This document shows positions 4,556 through 18,731 of a DNA stretch of 20,746 nt, piece after piece; the stretch's first letter is position 1; every line of letters begins with the position of its first letter. The stretch comes from a virus. The notes below the pieces were generated by a model. That model made no database searches and was not told the origin of the DNA. It worked only from the letters and a program-made list of their open reading frames with translations. The translations under genes and the position numbers were made by a program. The stretch spans positions 1 through 20,746 of IMG/VR virus record IMGVR_UViG_3300028025_002997. One strand, written 5' to 3'.

Positions 4556-4578
4556 CCACCCTTCGGGGTGGTTTTTTT
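4556..4578 (+). terminator. Rho-independent terminator between the convergent arms
   Basis: A perfect 6-bp GC-rich stem CCACCC/GGGTGG closed by a TTCG tetraloop and followed by seven T. It ends the + strand operon. The T-run overlaps the TAA stop of the - strand endolysin gene (4577-4579), so the two arms meet here. On the - strand the hairpin is followed by CTATAAAGG, a poor T-run, so it is mainly a + strand terminator. A second small hairpin (GTCTC/GAGAC, 4533-4547) lies just upstream. Confidence 0.93.
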
Positions 4579-5053
4579 ATGACTCAAACATCTCTTTTTC
4601 GTGAGTGCGTCGTTTAACCAAGCCAGGAAGCACTTTACCGCCAGCTTTGGTCCAGACTAAGAACTGCTCTGCGGCAGCCTCGTATTCACTTCTATTGACC
4701 TTCATACGCAATGTAGAGTTCTGTAAGTTACCTAAGCCTACATTGAATGAGAAAGACACCAAGGCATCAAACTGTCCTTGAGTCAACGGCACTTTAATCA
4801 GACGCAATACACCAGCTTCAAACCTTGCTAGGTCTTTACGAAGTATCTCGTCTATCTCATCGGCACTTAGAACCCTATCCCAACCTGCAGGAATAGGAAG
4901 TTGTTTTCTATCAGCCAGTGGAACTTTAGCGTGGTTTGGGTCAATAACATGACCAACTCCTATCGTCCATAACAATGCAGGGCATTGATAAGGGCGGTTA
5001 CGGACACCCTCATCTTTCTTAATCTGTTCAATACACTTCTGACTTACTTTCAC
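4577..5053 (-). CDS. GH24 phage endolysin (muramidase)
   Basis: A 158-aa lysozyme that hydrolyses peptidoglycan at the end of infection. The catalytic triad pattern E-8aa-(D/C)-5aa-T of T4/P22-type GH24 lysozymes is intact: E15 in KKDEG, C24 in YQCPA and T30 in LWTIGVGH. The downstream family motifs QGQFDALVSFSFNVGLGNL and LPGLVKRRTHEKEMF are also present. There is no signal peptide or signal-anchor segment, so it should depend on a holin for export. It is the last gene of the - strand operon and overlaps the holin by 4 nt. The family assignment is firm. Confidence 0.93.
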   Translation of the reverse strand: MKVSQKCIEQIKKDEGVRNRPYQCPALLWTIGVGHVIDPNHAKVPLADRKQLPIPAGWDRVLSADEIDEILRKDLARFEAGVLRLIKVPLTQGQFDALVSFSFNVGLGNLQNSTLRMKVNRSEYEAAAEQFLVWTKAGGKVLPGLVKRRTHEKEMFES

Positions 5054-5556
5054 TTCTTCTTATCCCAGTTGCGTGAACCGAACCAGAAACCAATGATACC
5101 GCCAAGCATAGCCATCTCGTCAGAAGAGAAAATCATCTCGCTGATAATCTCTAAGTCGTCCACACCTGTAATCAAACCAGGCATTGAGAACAATTTGTAA
5201 CATAACCAGAAGTTAATCAATACTAGCTCAATAACGAACAAGTAAGTGACTGTAGGGCGAACTGTACCAACATAGTTCACCACCCAAGTTGACGCTCTTT
5301 CCATGACTTTCTTGTCGTGGTCTAAGGCAGCATTCTGCATCTGAGCAGCTGTCTGCATCTCTACTTGGTCTGTGCGAATCTCTTCCATCTTAGCTTGAGC
5401 AACGAAGCCTCGCTCCATCATCTGTAGCTCTCGCTCTGTCTGCATCTGAGCAAGTTCTAACTCATGCTTTTTATCAGCCTTGTCTTGAAAGAAACCTAAT
5501 AGGCTAGGTAGACCTGAGACTAATAGTCCACCGATTGTTGAAATTAGTGATAGCAT
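5050..5556 (-). CDS. Holin, GTA_holin_3TM type
   Basis: A 168-aa membrane protein that should form the inner-membrane lesions releasing the endolysin. There is a hydrophobic N-terminus (about residues 2-22), then a long charged helix (25-90), then two membrane segments at about 101-122 (PTVTYLFVIELVLINFWLCY) and 146-160. The final segment MLGGIIGFWFGSRNW matches the conserved end of the three-TM holin family described for gene transfer agents. The gene overlaps the endolysin start by 4 nt, the expected pairing. The family call is from motif memory; the layout and neighbour strongly support it. Confidence 0.85.
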   Translation of the reverse strand: MLSLISTIGGLLVSGLPSLLGFFQDKADKKHELELAQMQTERELQMMERGFVAQAKMEEIRTDQVEMQTAAQMQNAALDHDKKVMERASTWVVNYVGTVRPTVTYLFVIELVLINFWLCYKLFSMPGLITGVDDLEIISEMIFSSDEMAMLGGIIGFWFGSRNWDKKK

Positions 5557-5558
5557 AT

Positions 5559-5954
5559 TTATTCCTTGTTTGCTAGTGGGTTATCTAAAGCTCGTTTAAT
5601 CTTAGTGTCAGTTTCCTTACGCATATCACGAAGGTCTTTGTCAACTTCTCTTGTCATCTGCTTGTTGTTGCGTTCTACTTCCTCAACAATCTTCTCTAAT
5701 CGACGAACATCGTTCTTGATGTCGTTCTTGATGTCACGAGTGTAGTCGTTAATCTTAGAGGTGTTCTCTTCCACAGCAACTAACCTAGAGTTGTATTCAG
5801 CCATGTCTTGAATGGACTCAATCTTCTGGTACAGGTTAAAAACAAACCATAACATACCAATAAAAGTAGAAATACCAGTAGCGATAAGACCTATCATTCC
5901 GATAGACATTTTCTTACCTAATATCTCAATCTCTTTCTCTTCTATACTGTGCAT
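5559..5954 (-). CDS. Membrane-anchored coiled-coil protein, possible i-spanin
   Basis: A 131-aa protein with a short charged N-terminus, one membrane segment at about residues 17-41 (SIGMIGLIATGISTFIGMLW) and a long charged coiled coil to about residue 118 (KINDYTRDIKNDIKNDVRRL and following). This is the topology of an inner-membrane spanin, and it lies 2 nt upstream of the holin in the lysis cassette. No matching outer-membrane lipoprotein with a lipobox is apparent nested in it, so the spanin role is tentative. The start at 5954 is supported by GAGGAG 7 nt upstream; a later ATG (5909, MSIGMIG) would lose only the charged head. It overlaps the preceding gene by 29 nt. Confidence 0.75.
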   Translation of the reverse strand: MHSIEEKEIEILGKKMSIGMIGLIATGISTFIGMLWFVFNLYQKIESIQDMAEYNSRLVAVEENTSKINDYTRDIKNDIKNDVRRLEKIVEEVERNNKQMTREVDKDLRDMRKETDTKIKRALDNPLANKE

Positions 5955-7155
5955 CTACCATCTCCTCGTGTGTTTTCTGACTTCCCATTATCAGAGCGTA
6001 ATAGCTCCTGTTATTATCTTGTATTGGTTTCTTAACCATATTCCTAAACAGCATATCTATAATCATCAACGGCTGTGTCTGCATCGGTACATCTACCATC
6101 ACTGGTGCTGTCTGCGTGACTTCATTCTTAACTTCAGCTCTAGTCGGCTTTGCCACTGGTTTAGCTTCCGTCTTCTTCTCCGCCTTTGGTTCTGCTTGGG
6201 CAGTTTGAGCTGCAGGTTGCGGATTAGTCTGTTGAACTGATACTGTTGCATTGACTGGTCTCGTAATTACTTCGTTGACAATTGGGTCAGACACGACAGG
6301 AGTTTCAACGCTAACTGTGCCTGTTGTACTGACTTGAAGTACTGGTGCTGAAACAACTGGTGCTGATGGTGTGACAACATTAGCAAGTGCATAAGCTGCT
6401 TCGTATCCAGAACATCTTCTGTCATACAGCGGGTTAAGGCTGCATTGTTGATTGAAATAAGCTTGAGTGTATCCTGGACAGCTTGGGTCATAGAGAGCAT
6501 TCAATCCACATTGTTGTGTTAAATAAGCCTGAGCGTAACCTGCACAGCTAGGACTAAACAGAGGGTCTGTTAGACACATATCGCCAGTAGTTTGTGTAAT
6601 ATTTGACACATTTTCTACTCTTCTAAACCCTGGACCGCTGTAGTTCAATGTGTACTGGTTCAGTGAACTATCGCCAGTCATTCCCATTGTTACTGTTCGC
6701 CAAGGGTCTATGTTGATTTGCTCATAGTGCACACCTATATAGCCACTAGGTCTAATCTCAACACCGAAAGTGTTTAAGTTACCTGGTCTGCCATATTCAC
6801 TGATGTTTTCCCACTTGTACCGCTGATACTGAGGTGTTCCTTCAGTTAAGAACCTACCTTGACCGTAGTTAATCAAGTCCGTCTGCAATGGCATAATAGC
6901 AAAACTAAACGGATGATTAGGCTGTGTTATGTCGTATCCTGAGCAACAGAAGTGATTTGTCGGATTGAGAAACCCAACAACACCGTTGCTGAACATATAA
7001 GATTCAGTAAACACACGACCGTAGTAAGGAAAAGCAAACTGGAGTGGAACTCTAGCATAGCCATCATCACTGATTTGATGCTGTATTATCTGTGTGTAAC
7101 TTAATGTCGGTAAATATAAACAAGTTCCGACAATTAGTGACAGCAACCATCTCAT
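5926..7155 (-). CDS. Secreted protein with NIDO-like domain and Cys-GY repeats
   Basis: A 409-aa protein of unknown function. A signal peptide is clear at residues 1-20 (MRWLLSLIVGTCLYLPTLSY). Residues 30-175 look like an all-beta domain with a stretch (VPLQFAFPYYGRVF, then YMFSNGVVGFL) recalling nidogen-like (NIDO) domains. Residues 194-259 hold three 22-aa repeats, C-x9-C-x-G-Y-x3-A-Y. A Pro/Ala/Lys-rich linker (about 300-345) leads to a C-terminal segment ending RRERD. It overlaps the upstream secreted-protein gene by 4 nt and the coiled-coil gene by 29 nt. It could be a periplasmic or outer-membrane lysis factor, or a virion protein exported through the envelope; neither is shown. The signal peptide and repeats are directly visible. 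Confidence 0.8.
   Translation of the reverse strand: MRWLLSLIVGTCLYLPTLSYTQIIQHQISDDGYARVPLQFAFPYYGRVFTESYMFSNGVVGFLNPTNHFCCSGYDITQPNHPFSFAIMPLQTDLINYGQGRFLTEGTPQYQRYKWENISEYGRPGNLNTFGVEIRPSGYIGVHYEQINIDPWRTVTMGMTGDSSLNQYTLNYSGPGFRRVENVSNITQTTGDMCLTDPLFSPSCAGYAQAYLTQQCGLNALYDPSCPGYTQAYFNQQCSLNPLYDRRCSGYEAAYALANVVTPSAPVVSAPVLQVSTTGTVSVETPVVSDPIVNEVITRPVNATVSVQQTNPQPAAQTAQAEPKAEKKTEAKPVAKPTRAEVKNEVTQTAPVMVDVPMQTQPLMIIDMLFRNMVKKPIQDNNRSYYALIMGSQKTHEEMVDAQYRRERD
5962..5967 (-). promoter_or_regulatory. Shine-Dalgarno deciding the start at 5954
   Basis: GAGGAG (read on the - strand) lies 7 nt before the ATG at 5954, within the last codons of the upstream secreted-protein gene. It supports the longer form of the coiled-coil protein over the start at 5909. 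Confidence 0.6.
6379..6576 (-). repeat. Three 66-bp (22-aa) tandem repeats, C-x9-CxGY type
   Basis: Residues 194-259 of the secreted protein form three tandem units. Each begins CxxxxLY/FD (or P) and continues xxCxGYxxAYxxQQ. Cysteines fall at 194/204, 216/226 and 238/248, a constant 10-residue offset with a 22-residue period. In an exported protein each pair could form a disulfide. The third unit lacks the terminal QQ. Confidence 0.85.
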
Positions 7156-7607
7156 TTTATCTTAGGTCGAGTAGGGATTAGTGCAGTGTTGTCCATCCAG
7201 TAGTTCTTAGCTTCAACACCAACTTTACCTTCTACTGGACAGAATGTACCAGCATCCCACATAGCCCACCAAATAGCAGCATCCTGACACATCACTGACA
7301 CAGCAGCAGTTTTCATCTGCATATTGAACAATGACTCAGCCTTGATAATCATCTCACAGTTACTATCACGAACTGTAGTTCCCATAGAGATACCAAAGAT
7401 TTGAGTCTGCACCGCTGCAGCCACACCGCTACTACACATCTTGTTATTGATGGTTGTAATAGACGGTGAGATAGCTGACGGAGGAGGAGACTTTACTGTT
7501 GTCTCAGACTTAGATGTAGAGTCAGTAATGATTGGCTGTGCCTGTACTGGTACATAGCTGACACAAATAAGGACTAAGCCTATCCAAAGGTATAGTAAAG
7601 TCCTCAT
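7152..7607 (-). CDS. Secreted four-cysteine phage protein
   Basis: A 151-aa protein with a signal peptide at residues 1-23 (LLYLWIGLVLICVSY, then VQA before the likely cleavage site). A short Ser/Pro linker (SPPPSAISPS) precedes a compact domain with four cysteines at 58, 84, 107 and 123, and the distinctive stretches GVAAAVQTQIFGISMGTTVR and AAVSVMCQDAAIWWAMWDAG. I recall similar proteins in uncultured aquatic phages, always unassigned. It overlaps the ejection-type gene upstream and the larger secreted gene downstream, each by ATGA, so the pair is co-translated between virion and lysis genes. Its destination is periplasm or beyond; its function is unknown. Confidence 0.8.
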   Translation of the reverse strand: MRTLLYLWIGLVLICVSYVPVQAQPIITDSTSKSETTVKSPPPSAISPSITTINNKMCSSGVAAAVQTQIFGISMGTTVRDSNCEMIIKAESLFNMQMKTAAVSVMCQDAAIWWAMWDAGTFCPVEGKVGVEAKNYWMDNTALIPTRPKIK

Positions 7608-9661
7608 TGCTGTTGTTCCAATTCTCTAATACGACGACGAACAGCTTCTAAATCACCTGAAGGTTGTATTGTTTCAGGCAACTGTTCACGAGCTGTAGGA
7701 ACTGCTCCAGCTGCTGAGTATTTACCTAAGAAATTCATAGTATCAGCGTATGTCTGCGGCAGCGGCTTGTTAGTTACTTTTTGGTCAGCTAAGTATCGTA
7801 ACATTGTCTGACCTTGAGGATTAGTCATCATCCAAGCTAGTTTCTCAGCACTGTTAGCAGAACCAGACACCATGTTTAATGTGTCCTGTATAGCTGCTAC
7901 AGCTTTACCAACTGTCCATCCACCACCCACCGCAGCTGCTTCAGTTGTAGTACCCTGCAATTGACTCTGTAATGACTCTGAAGGACCTACAGGCTTTTTA
8001 GTAATCGATTCTAAATCACGAACCAATACTTTTACTTTAGCTTTTTCTGCTGGTGTTTTAAACAAGAAGTCATTTAAACCCAATGCACCTGCTTCTGATT
8101 TCTGAGCTGTAATATCTTTTAAATTAGACAACAGTTTATCTGGGTTTCCTTTTGCATCGTCTAACACCTGTTGCATTGTACGATTACGCAAAGAAGCCAC
8201 AATATCAGGTCTGTTTGCATCTAGTAAGTTAAGCATCACAACACGCTCTGTTGGAGTTGCTTGTGTCAAATACTGAACTGTTTCAGTAGGGTCTAAAGCA
8301 GACGGATTGTCTTTCATAAACTTCTTAATAAAAGGAGTTTCTGCGTAGCTGTCTAATTGCTTCAAACCTTCTCTAAAATCATCACGAGCTTTGCTTAATT
8401 CTTTAGCACCTTTTACATTGGCTTGAACAGCTGTGTCTAAATCGTCTCTAAAACCATTTAAAACTTTACGAGCGATTCCCTTTACTGTTCCAGGAGCGAC
8501 ACCTTTAAACACATTGTCTGTGCCGCCAGGCATTGAAAACTCACCTGTTTTAGCAGCTTTACCCCAAGACTCTAAGTTCTTTTGAAGCTCTGCAATTGTT
8601 AACTTCTGTGTTTGTTCAGCAGTTACAAAAGCTGGTTTACCGTCAGCACCTAGAACCATAGAAGGCTCTGACTGTTTAGACATTTGATTCTTTAAACCTC
8701 TTAGCTGGTCTGCTACTTGTTTTAACTCAATCGGCATACCTTCTGCTGAGTAATAAGCAATCTGGTCGTCTAATGTTTTGTTCAGACCATCAGTTCCAAA
8801 AATCCTCTCATTACCAGCTGCTTTTTCAGCAGCAGAGAAGTTAACTCTATTCTGTGCTCTGAACTTATTAACAATTCTGTTGTTCTGATAGTTAACAGCG
8901 TCAATCACACCTTTGTTAATATCAGTAGCTGTGAGGTTTTTATTAGCACTAAACTGTTGAATCTTAGATGCAAAGTCTTCTGCTGAATCAGCTTGAGACA
9001 GTCCAAAACGCTGAAATATAGGAGCACCGCCTTCTGCTTTTGCTACATCAGCTTCTGTTCTTAACAATCTCTCAGAGCCTGTGCGTTGTCCAGCAGTCAT
9101 AGGAATACCTGTTTCTGTTGAAACGGACGGTTTTGCTGTTGATGGAACATTTCGTCTTACTGCACCAGCTGCTCCTGTAAATAGACCAGGAAGAACACCT
9201 ACAAGCATTTGACCTGTTGATGATTCAGGAAACAAGCCTTTAGCAGCTAAGTTTGATAAGCCACCAATTAAACCAGCAGTGCCTACAGCAACTGTACCTA
9301 CAAGAGGACCGCCAATATAAGCTGGAGTTGCTAAAGCTGCTGCAGGAGCTGCACCTTCTGTAAAACGATAAATAGCTTGCTCAAGACCTGATTTAGGCTC
9401 GTTAGCTATTTGAAAAGTTTCACGCATTTTAGCTGTAGGAGAACCGCCAAGTGAAATATCTGTACCTGGTATTGTTGGAGCACCTTGTCCAGCTGCCTGT
9501 AATGGAATAGAAGCTACTTCAGGAATAAAACCCAATAAATTAGTAGCACCACTAGCTGCTCCAGAAAAAGCAGCTCTACCGCCTTCTGCTAACGCTTCAG
9601 CTGTGCTACGACCTTCACGACGAGCTATCTCTGCTCTTACTGCGTCTAAATCAGTTGCCAT
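7604..9661 (-). CDS. Large Ala/Gly-rich virion protein, probable DNA-ejection protein
   Basis: A 685-aa protein. Residues 103-141 and 150-168 are hydrophobic Ala/Gly-rich stretches (IGGPLVGTVAVGTAGLIGGL; MLVGVLPGLFTGAAGAV) that could insert in membranes. The remaining 450 residues are charged and helical. Genes of this size and composition after the tail-tube genes of podoviruses usually encode internal or ejection proteins that leave the particle with the DNA. The N-terminus (DLDAVRAEIARRE) and C-terminus (DLEAVRRRIRELEQ) carry the same short helical motif. No lytic transglycosylase motif was recognised. It overlaps the next gene by ATGA. The structural role is inferred from context. Confidence 0.72.
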   Translation of the reverse strand: MATDLDAVRAEIARREGRSTAEALAEGGRAAFSGAASGATNLLGFIPEVASIPLQAAGQGAPTIPGTDISLGGSPTAKMRETFQIANEPKSGLEQAIYRFTEGAAPAAALATPAYIGGPLVGTVAVGTAGLIGGLSNLAAKGLFPESSTGQMLVGVLPGLFTGAAGAVRRNVPSTAKPSVSTETGIPMTAGQRTGSERLLRTEADVAKAEGGAPIFQRFGLSQADSAEDFASKIQQFSANKNLTATDINKGVIDAVNYQNNRIVNKFRAQNRVNFSAAEKAAGNERIFGTDGLNKTLDDQIAYYSAEGMPIELKQVADQLRGLKNQMSKQSEPSMVLGADGKPAFVTAEQTQKLTIAELQKNLESWGKAAKTGEFSMPGGTDNVFKGVAPGTVKGIARKVLNGFRDDLDTAVQANVKGAKELSKARDDFREGLKQLDSYAETPFIKKFMKDNPSALDPTETVQYLTQATPTERVVMLNLLDANRPDIVASLRNRTMQQVLDDAKGNPDKLLSNLKDITAQKSEAGALGLNDFLFKTPAEKAKVKVLVRDLESITKKPVGPSESLQSQLQGTTTEAAAVGGGWTVGKAVAAIQDTLNMVSGSANSAEKLAWMMTNPQGQTMLRYLADQKVTNKPLPQTYADTMNFLGKYSAAGAVPTAREQLPETIQPSGDLEAVRRRIRELEQQQ

Positions 9662-13116: not shown

Positions 13117-14697
13117 TTAAGCGACCCTTCCAGGTTTTACATATACATCAAGTTTTTGAACGGATAATGAAGTACCATTAATGATACTCTCTAAGCCAAG
13201 CTGTAAAGCACGACCAGTGCCAGAAGCAGGGACATCTAGTTTAGTAATTACAACACCGCCTGAATACTTAGCAATGCCATATTCACCGATACCGTATTCT
13301 GAAATAGAGCCTGTATTCAGTATATTTACTGCAGATTCATAACTACCTTCGTAGTCAAAGTCCCACTTTACTGATACTGTTTGACCTGCTCCACCAATAA
13401 GGTAGAAGTCAGCTTTCTTTAGAATTTTTAGTTGTGTTGGTGTCTGATAATCAAAGTAGTTGGTATAATAAGACATCTCATAGTCTGTACCATTATCTTG
13501 ATAACCAATATACTTACCAACATAACCAGCTAAACCAAAGTAAACTTCTTTGTTTCGTGTTAAGCACATAGCTGTAGGAATCAATTCAGACCATGTTGTT
13601 ACACGAGCTGCACCATCTTGCATCTGCACTCTTGTATCAAGACAATAAACAATGTTTTGACCAGGAAACGATAGTAAGTAAAAAGCATCTAAAGGGCTAT
13701 ATACTGACTTAATTTCTTTTGGTGTTTCAAGTGAAACATAGTTTAACAAGTCGTCACGAACATTCTTAGACAAATCTCTAAACGGTGCAGACTTCTCTTG
13801 AATAGTTCTTGCTAATGACCTTACACCAGTGTCAGACAAAAAGATAACATCAGTACCTGTTGTCTGTACAGAGTCTCTGGCAATACAGCCAATACCTGTT
13901 ACAACATCAGACAATGTGATAGCTGTAGGGTCTTGTGCGTTAGCATAAACTACTGTATGACGCTCACAGAAGATAATCAAAAAACCGTTGTGAGCAGCAA
14001 TCGCTGTGATAGGGTCTCCATCACCTACAACCTCAGATATATTTAATCTACCAGCTGTACCTGTTCTATAGTTCAGTGCATCAACTAAGTCACTAAAATA
14101 AACAGTTTGTTGGTCTCCAGCAATGTCTGCAACCCATGTACGACCATAAGCAGCTAAAGCACAGTTAGGTGTAAATGTAGATGTTGTATAGCCGTTAGGC
14201 AATGTACCTAAATCACCTAGTCTCTGAAATCCAAAAGCACTGGTTAAGTAGTTCAACACCAATACAGGATGTCCTGCTTGTACAACAGTACCGTAAGACT
14301 TAGTCTCACCTGATTGCTGAATGTTGGCTACTTGCCAATGACTGTCTGATATTGTATAAGACACATTACCGTCATCAGCAGCATTACGAACAGTCTTAGC
14401 TACCAGAGCACCAGACTCTTCAATAAATAGCTTATTATTACCAGCAGCAAACAACACCACATTGTTATCAGGACCACGAAGTTCGTGTACTGTCTTAACA
14501 TCAGCAGTGCCTAAATCAGTATTGGTAGCGTGGACATTGTCCCAGCCTTTACGAGAACCAATACGACCAAACTTATCAATAATACAGTTGTTTGCAATTA
14601 AAGCGTATCCAGACTCCAATGTAACGCTAGAGTCCTGGGTGTTTAAACCCATGAAGCCAGGAGCTGCTACAGTTGCTGCTTGGAGTTGTTTACTCAC
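13117..14697 (-). CDS. Tail nozzle / packaged-DNA stabilisation protein, P22 gp10-like
   Basis: A 526-aa structural protein of the short tail, below the adaptor. The N-terminus is MSKQLQAATVAAPGFMGLNT, followed by a Q-D-S-S-V-T-L-E-S-G segment and N-C-I-I-D-K-F-G-R-I-G. This is the pattern that opens P22 gp10-type and related tail stabilisation proteins. The body has repeated beta-propeller-like blades (VVLFAAGNNKLFIEES; GFLIIFCERHTVVYAN; VIFLSDTGVRSLA). The GTG at 14697 was chosen because it overlaps the adaptor stop by 4 nt (GTGA) and gives the expected N-terminus. A TTG at 14709 would add four residues. The family match is by recalled motif; the tail role is supported by the adaptor directly upstream. 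Confidence 0.82.
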   Translation of the reverse strand: MSKQLQAATVAAPGFMGLNTQDSSVTLESGYALIANNCIIDKFGRIGSRKGWDNVHATNTDLGTADVKTVHELRGPDNNVVLFAAGNNKLFIEESGALVAKTVRNAADDGNVSYTISDSHWQVANIQQSGETKSYGTVVQAGHPVLVLNYLTSAFGFQRLGDLGTLPNGYTTSTFTPNCALAAYGRTWVADIAGDQQTVYFSDLVDALNYRTGTAGRLNISEVVGDGDPITAIAAHNGFLIIFCERHTVVYANAQDPTAITLSDVVTGIGCIARDSVQTTGTDVIFLSDTGVRSLARTIQEKSAPFRDLSKNVRDDLLNYVSLETPKEIKSVYSPLDAFYLLSFPGQNIVYCLDTRVQMQDGAARVTTWSELIPTAMCLTRNKEVYFGLAGYVGKYIGYQDNGTDYEMSYYTNYFDYQTPTQLKILKKADFYLIGGAGQTVSVKWDFDYEGSYESAVNILNTGSISEYGIGEYGIAKYSGGVVITKLDVPASGTGRALQLGLESIINGTSLSVQKLDVYVKPGRVA

Positions 14698-15347
14698 ACG
14701 CTCACCCAATTAGTGTCTTCAATGTAACGATTAGACTCAAGAGCAATATAATCAGCCATTAAGTTCTTAGCTAGTAAATAAGCTTCTGAAGAGGCTAAAC
14801 CACCGTCTTCACCACGCTCTACTAGAGCTCTTGCATACGCATTCATAATCACGACATCAGCAGGAACTTTAATTACTGTGCTATCGCTAGTTAGTTTGTC
14901 TTGTGGTAAGAACACATTGAATCGTAATGTGTAAACACCGTTAGGAATTGGGAAGACATCAACTAGCGTGTCTCCGTTAGAGTCTTGACCGTTAAAGTTG
15001 TAATACTGTGGAGAACCTTTTTGTGCAGTTGTCAACAAGAACTGCTGGTCCATCCAATCACGAGTAGCTTGTCTTAAAAACCAGTTACTTGTGTCATTTA
15101 ATACATTACCAACTCTAAAGCGTACACCAGAGCCTGTGAGGACATAACTGAACAAATCAGCTGTTGTGTCGGCTGTTAAGGTTTCTGACAACGCATTCCA
15201 ATTGTAAGCAGCTTCTACCTGTGTCTTAGCATCGTTAACGAAAGTACCGATTAGCTTAGAGTAAGTAGTAGCATTAACTGTAGAGACTTCAGACTCTCTA
15301 AGTCTTAGTAAAACTTCATTAACTGCTTGTAAATAAGTAGTTGTCAT
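14694..15347 (-). CDS. Head-tail adaptor, T7 gp11 / P22 gp4-like
   Basis: A 217-aa protein that should sit under the portal and connect it to the tail nozzle. It opens MTTTYLQAVNEVLLRLRESE, a helical start seen in many podovirus tail tubular A or adaptor proteins. The middle is a beta domain (VFPIPNGVYTLRFNVFLPQ), and helices follow (NAYARALVERGEDGGLASSE, then AYLLAKNLMADYIAL). It has an AAGGGA ribosome-binding site 4 nt upstream of the ATG spacer and a predicted promoter immediately before it, so it appears to lead its own transcription unit. Its end overlaps the nozzle gene. The assignment is confident from overall pattern and order. Confidence 0.85.
   Translation of the reverse strand: MTTTYLQAVNEVLLRLRESEVSTVNATTYSKLIGTFVNDAKTQVEAAYNWNALSETLTADTTADLFSYVLTGSGVRFRVGNVLNDTSNWFLRQATRDWMDQQFLLTTAQKGSPQYYNFNGQDSNGDTLVDVFPIPNGVYTLRFNVFLPQDKLTSDSTVIKVPADVVIMNAYARALVERGEDGGLASSEAYLLAKNLMADYIALESNRYIEDTNWVSV

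Positions 15348-17660: not shown

Positions 17661-17661
<1 letters not shown>
16915..17661 (-). CDS. Tail fibre with decapeptide repeats
   Basis: A 248-aa fibre protein. Residues 17-46 (ASSLSVGELAVNTADGKLYT) are a common N-terminal segment of phage fibres. Residues 54-113 are six tandem 10-aa repeats of the DGAITSAKIA type, which should form a regular beta-structured shaft. Residues 117-137 (TAGTYTTATVTVDAKGRITS) are another frequent fibre block, and the C-terminal 100 residues form a non-repetitive beta domain (a possible receptor-binding or closing domain) ending GLWVRIS. Its start overlaps the collagen-like fibre stop by TAATG and uses a ribosome-binding site coded by that gene's last residues. 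The fibre role is confident; the receptor is unknown. Confidence 0.83.
17323..17502 (-). repeat. Six 30-bp (10-aa) tandem repeats in the fibre shaft
   Basis: Residues 54-113 of the fibre read as six units of ten: DGGITTDKVA, DGAITSAKIA, DGTIVAGDIA, SNAVTTAKIA, DSNVTEAKIA, DGAVTTNKLS. The conserved positions are D1, the beta-branched pair at 4-5 and the K-I/V-A end. Unit number is likely to vary by recombination. Confidence 0.85.

Positions 17662-18731
<1,070 letters not shown>

Follow-up and report, generated by a model that had tools for sequence, protein, structure and literature searches.

Why should a phage encode exported, cysteine-bearing proteins between its ejection and its lysis genes? 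The question is raised by the IMG/VR virus record IMGVR_UViG_3300028025_002997, the whole 20,746 bases of which are referred to here as the window. A first-pass annotation described two reading frames overlapping by ATGA, and proposed that this pair acts in envelope disruption, as an unusual spanin for example, or alters the surface of the infected cell. Both reading frames lie where they were placed and overlap as described, but they are not a pair, since a third gene makes a trio. We conclude from the sequences that this trio, A-B-C, makes up an exported module of the envelope that is conserved and probably expressed late; our search of the literature for the three families found no description of it.

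The gene run and its exported proteins

The genes concerned form a tightly packed run in the window, from ejection gene through trio to holin-like and lysozyme genes:

U, 7604..9661, minus strand: probable ejection protein of 685 aa, judged by its position, upstream of A with an ATGA overlap
A, 7152..7607, minus strand: exported protein of 151 aa, signal about residues 1-23, four invariant mature cysteines, predicted hairpin (59-80, low confidence) and helices
B, 5926..7155, minus strand: exported modular protein of 409 aa
B front domain (residues 22-187), 6595..7092, minus strand: predicted β-sandwich, pLDDT mostly ~90; the part swapped between lineages
B cysteine repeats (residues 194-259), 6379..6576, minus strand: three C-x9-C units of 22 residues each, predicted helical
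B linker (residues 263-367), 6055..6369, minus strand: rich in Pro, Ala, Glu and Lys, predicted disordered
B C-terminal stretch (residues 368-408), 5932..6054, minus strand: helix and conserved D-N..H.EMV..QY motif, common to the second B type
C, 5559..5954, minus strand: N-terminal transmembrane (TM) segment, coiled coil, no cysteine, C-terminal NPLA; 29-nt overlap with B
D, 5050..5556, minus strand: holin-like membrane protein and putative holin; phrog_6637, with a weak match to the holin family phrog_3427
E, 4577..5053, minus strand: endolysin, Phage_lysozyme PF00959 (7.5e-41)

The stop codon of A and the start codon of B share ATGA (AAG ATA AAA TGA and ATG AGA TGG on the minus strand), and the start of A overlaps U in the same way. 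These overlaps chain A and B to the gene upstream, and the run continues through C into D and E, bearing out the placement between ejection and lysis genes. U has no family match in Pfam or PHROGs. Elsewhere in the window, 17661-18731 on the minus strand encodes a collagen-like protein with GATGATG repeats, probably a tail fibre. The 530-aa protein at 13117-14709, also on the minus strand, has as its best PHROG phrog_5107 (1.5e-36), which is labelled amidase; the remaining matches of this protein are to head closure and virion proteins, and the label looks doubtful.

The N-terminus of A consists of MR, a hydrophobic core and PVQA followed by Q, a pattern that places the signal at about residues 1-23. 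In B the corresponding sequence is MRWLLSLIVGTCLYLPTLSYT followed by Q, giving a signal of about 1-19 to 1-21, and a relative has AQA followed by QII at the same place. A heuristic requiring a charged N-region, a hydrophobic core and small residues at -3 and -1 is passed by 220 of 221 A proteins and 183 of 187 B proteins, compared with 18% of other genes. Because it also passes proteins with an N-terminal TM segment, it marks a signal for export or insertion and not cleavage as such; in these terms the signal peptides first described (residues 1-20 and 1-23) are present in both proteins and near-universal in their relatives.

The cysteines noted at first sight, four in A and three C-x9-C pairs in B, are likewise real and kept across relatives. 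Mature A has exactly four (58, 84, 107 and 123), invariant in 176 of 176 distinct relatives. Those of B comprise C194/C204, C216/C226 and C238/C248, together with C70/C71. Among relatives, 742 of 789 repeats have the C-x9-C spacing; the units recur every 22 residues and number from ~3 to 15, a regularity far beyond chance. These conserved cysteines favour a periplasmic location for A and B.

AlphaFold models of B show the front β-sandwich, helical cysteine repeats (193-260), the disordered linker and a C-terminal helix; A is predicted to be helical, with a poorly predicted hairpin. Fold searches of the PDB with A and with B matched nothing, Pfam gave no match for either, and no structural protein family was found for them in Pfam or PHROGs. 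A falls in phrog_20531, a family of unknown role, and BFVD matches to B are solely uncharacterised or loosely named phage proteins. For C, hydropathy and sequence indicate an N-terminal TM segment and a coiled coil, and its tail reads NPLANKE; a C-terminal NP[L/M/F] is found in 138 of 142 C proteins, compared with 22 of 3990 other genes.

Several candidate identities were considered. A nidogen-like domain was discarded for B, which has no Pfam or PDB match to one, and the lipobox-like VGTC in B has the wrong residue at -1. A may be an outer-membrane β-barrel subunit, as its hairpin suggests, but that hairpin is of low confidence and a C-terminal TM segment is present in 65 of 221 A proteins. 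A is not a paralogue of the hairpin protein family cl8 (see below), with which HHalign gave 14% and which has the signal peptide alone in common with it.

Distribution and conservation of the trio

The module is widespread. In IMG/VR, 57 loci are close to the A of the window, while the A profile recovers at least 594 and B 169. The order A, exported protein, C recurs in pelagiphages, roseophages, T4-like phages and freshwater phages; A is carried by the named pelagiphages HTVC115P, HTVC023P, HTVC202P, HTVC033P, Baldr and Mosig and by the roseophages CRP-207 and CRP-810, and gp25 of Achromobacter phage JWAlpha has it as a C-terminal domain. A cellular origin was considered and rejected: one genome scan gave 30 contigs, each from a MAG or single-cell assembly, and these are plausibly phage.

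A recognisable B is present in the module at 185 of the 202 loci with room for it, mostly overlapping or abutting A, and at 174 of these C is present too. At nearly all of the remaining 17 loci another large protein takes the place of B, most then with a C-like protein ending NPL. Two types of B can be recognised, sharing the cysteine motif and the C-terminus (97% and 98%) but not the front domain. Even where A is 50-65% identical to that of the window, the B front domain has a median identity of 12%. The pelagiphage protein in the B position combines an acidic linker with a front domain that bears a carbohydrate-binding annotation; we tried it as a sequence homologue of the window's B and found no detectable relation, the likeness being one of position and layout.

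In a second architecture (54 loci, among them L180, L186, L203, L206 and L221), additional exported genes lie between B and C. They belong to families that we term cl6 (~166 aa), cl7 (~128 aa) and cl8 (~140 aa), which have no Pfam match and, by eye only, a fimbrial or Ig-like look. Homologues of three such genes occur in the same order as gp150-152 of Vibrio phage Thalassa (L268:4139-5294), where they precede a lipoprotein, a T holin (PF11031) and an M15 endolysin; the culturable host makes this phage a possible test bed.

Two further observations concern annotation. CRP-810 gp51 (L264:6219-6641) and CRP-207 gp73 (L266:3292-3873), called 'lysozyme' and 'putative lysozyme' in GenBank, are C homologues with a TM segment and coiled coil, end in NPLGR and DNPL, and match the C profile at 5e-10 and 5e-13. 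Neither has a lysozyme domain, and we therefore regard both as misannotations. A short reading frame just upstream of A (L267:862-1098, L264:4612-4872 and L266:1710-1937) resembles a miniature A, with weak profile hits of 2e-4 to 4e-5.

Lysis genes, timing and the spanin question

Is the module tied to lysis? The neighbourhoods of homologues show such a link in the window's lineage and several others; elsewhere the module can lie far from lysis genes. In the window's lineage it is followed by the holin-like D and then by an endolysin of one of two types (lysozyme or M15). It lies near an M15 endolysin in HTVC023P and endolysins in several others, and it adjoins a lysozyme in MW202481, a GH19 enzyme in ct7L0027 and, with a glucosaminidase nearby, an amidase in HTVC033P. 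Among the 27 records with a profile-found endolysin, 16 have the module within 5 kb of it, compared with 6.6 expected; this set leaves out CRP-810 and CRP-207, whose 'lysozymes' are the C homologues, and ct7L0027 and HTVC033P, whose endolysins are known from annotation. Counting the window's lineage as just two records reduces this to 7 of 18 against 3.9 expected (p = 0.07), and in genomes above 65 kb it is 0 of 6. The weaker link after this reduction, and its absence from the large genomes, count against a role in release. Different lineages have different holins in the neighbourhood of the module.

The timing of expression is suggested by promoters. In the larger phages, an exact T4-type late box lies upstream of 25 of 83 nonredundant A genes that have their own upstream region, compared with 20 of the 361 other genes that are uncoupled and 39 of the 3320 windows taken at random. 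As evidence from a motif alone, this enrichment suggests that the module is probably late in the larger phages too, and we take A, B and C to be probably late-expressed.

The specific proposal of an unusual spanin is not supported. Six-frame translation of the window gave no open reading frame with a lipobox, and four relatives of 36-38 kb have no convincing lipoprotein gene, only three tiny unconvincing reading frames. Among proteins with a signal, lipobox-like sequences occur in 3 of 220 A and 5 of 183 B. The Rz family PF03245 was over its cut-off in none of 54 records, and the match of the window's C to phrog_214 (0.0028) is of the weak kind typical of coiled coils. Moreover, two large relatives, G011 and G045, have a canonical overlapping i-/o-spanin pair (phrog_739 and phrog_812) adjacent to the endolysin, while 21 kb and ~70 kb separate it from the trio. 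The trio can thus coexist with true spanins and, being also far from lysis genes elsewhere, is not simply a spanin. The broader reading as envelope disruption fares better, as the proteins look exported, are probably late and are chained into the lysis run; it is the spanin identity that lacks support.

A small cysteine-rich lipoprotein with the motif RYPCQ[DN]P was seen at L100:8141-8320, L109:8475-8708, L057:5780-6016 and L231:11379-11615; in the first three it is encoded directly 3' of C, and it could be an o-spanin-like partner.

Role of the module and comparison with known systems

What, then, does the module do? We rank a role in release as the most likely, followed by late surface display, and tentatively suggest, at slightly less than even confidence, that A-B-C is a late exported trans-envelope complex that aids an outer-membrane or release step. 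A, probably held by disulfides, and B would both be exported, B reaching from an N-terminal binding domain through its cysteine repeats and long flexible linker to the conserved C-terminal helix. C would be anchored in the inner membrane, its coiled coil, ending in NPLA, probably periplasmic. If the three bind one another, they might form a connection from the inner membrane to the outer membrane or the surface, where the swappable domain of B, gripping a host-specific outer ligand, would substitute for a lipid anchor; once holin and endolysin have acted, the complex would help to breach or detach the outer layer. It may be the main route in small phages that lack recognisable spanins, and an accessory in large phages. 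This proposal draws on the gene order kept across unrelated phages, the export signals and invariant cysteines, the late box upstream of A, the placement before holin-like and endolysin genes with the proximity to endolysins, and the i-spanin-like topology of C where no convincing lipoprotein and no Rz match over cut-off is found. The canonical spanins of G011 and G045 tell against it, as does the variable front domain of B, which simple membrane rupture would not need.

A stronger form of the release proposal is, in our view, unlikely: a disulfide-locked three-protein tether, with a swappable host-specific binding domain replacing the lipid anchor, that breaks or sheds the outer membrane at lysis and represents a separate kind of aquatic-phage machine. 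A survey found no recognisable spanin in 91 of 677 phages (~13%), and raises the question of how else they pass the outer membrane (PMC6139136). Such a tether, if real, would help to explain how these phages exit. The module, abundant in aquatic phages, offers defined genes with which outer-membrane exit without a spanin could be tested.

The swappable front domain of B speaks for the altered cell surface named by the first-pass annotation. An exported complex could set it on or under the outer membrane late in infection and mask the phage receptor, preventing superinfection, keeping progeny off infected cells and debris, or making cells adherent. We consider this rather less probable than release, though it accords with the swapping and divergence of the front domain, with the 'carbohydrate binding' annotation of the B-position genes in AP013540 and HTVC033P, the commonest named class in hypervariable islands (PMC3909814), and with the separation of the module and the lysis genes in large phages equipped with spanins of their own. 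In T4, imm and other exclusion genes are expressed early, whereas many phages have late boxes here; the repeated placement in lysis regions is also unfavourable, and no outer-membrane or surface anchor was identified.

It is improbable that A and B belong to the particle, with hydrophobic N-termini that serve in entry and are not Sec signals. They are late genes adjoining ejection and tail genes in podoviruses, and the carbohydrate-binding annotation has been read as host recognition, yet both carry cleavage-site patterns, the signals are near-universal and the cysteines invariant. The homologues did not prove to be ordinary virion proteins remote from all lysis genes, and gp25 of JWAlpha, a distant A-domain protein, does not appear among the few particle bands identified in the published account (PMC3915230). 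Equally improbable is control of lysis timing by periplasmic proteins that respond to the state of the envelope or to an external signal by holding back or setting off the holin, like the T4 antiholin RI: a small disulfide-bonded protein adjoins holin and endolysin and B has a variable, sensor-like domain, but the nearby holins vary by lineage, the module also lies far from holins, and Pfam and PHROGs gave no similarity to RI.

Among known proteins, JWAlpha gp25 (phrog_20531) shares the A domain at its C-terminus, but differs in its G/N-rich front, in having no trio and in lying outside the lysis region. The curli pore genes CsgG-CsgF of pelagimyophages and the OM43 phage Melnitz (PMC7029224, PMC9004378, PMC9599517) similarly encode exported envelope proteins of marine phages, proposed to bear on lysis or the cell surface (PMC9004378, PMC7029224); A, B and C have no Pfam match to CsgG, CsgF or CsgA/B. 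Genes with a 'putative carbohydrate binding domain' are the commonest named genes in metaviromic hypervariable islands of marine phages, where they are read as host recognition (PMC3909814). The B-position genes of AP013540 and HTVC033P, so annotated, differ in having an export signal and in lying between A and C, which suggests that one class of these genes may encode exported envelope proteins and not tail fibres.

The closest comparison is with two-component spanins such as lambda Rz/Rz1 (PMC6139136). The layout of C, with its N-terminal TM segment and coiled coil, resembles that of an i-spanin, and in the window's lineage the trio occupies the holin-endolysin region and probably acts late in the envelope. 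A unimolecular spanin combines an N-terminal lipobox with a C-terminal TM segment, and the window's A, B and C have no lipobox. Compared with the two-component systems, the trio dispenses with a lipoprotein partner, adds two exported cysteine-rich proteins and a swappable domain, and in G011 and G045 is found alongside canonical spanins.
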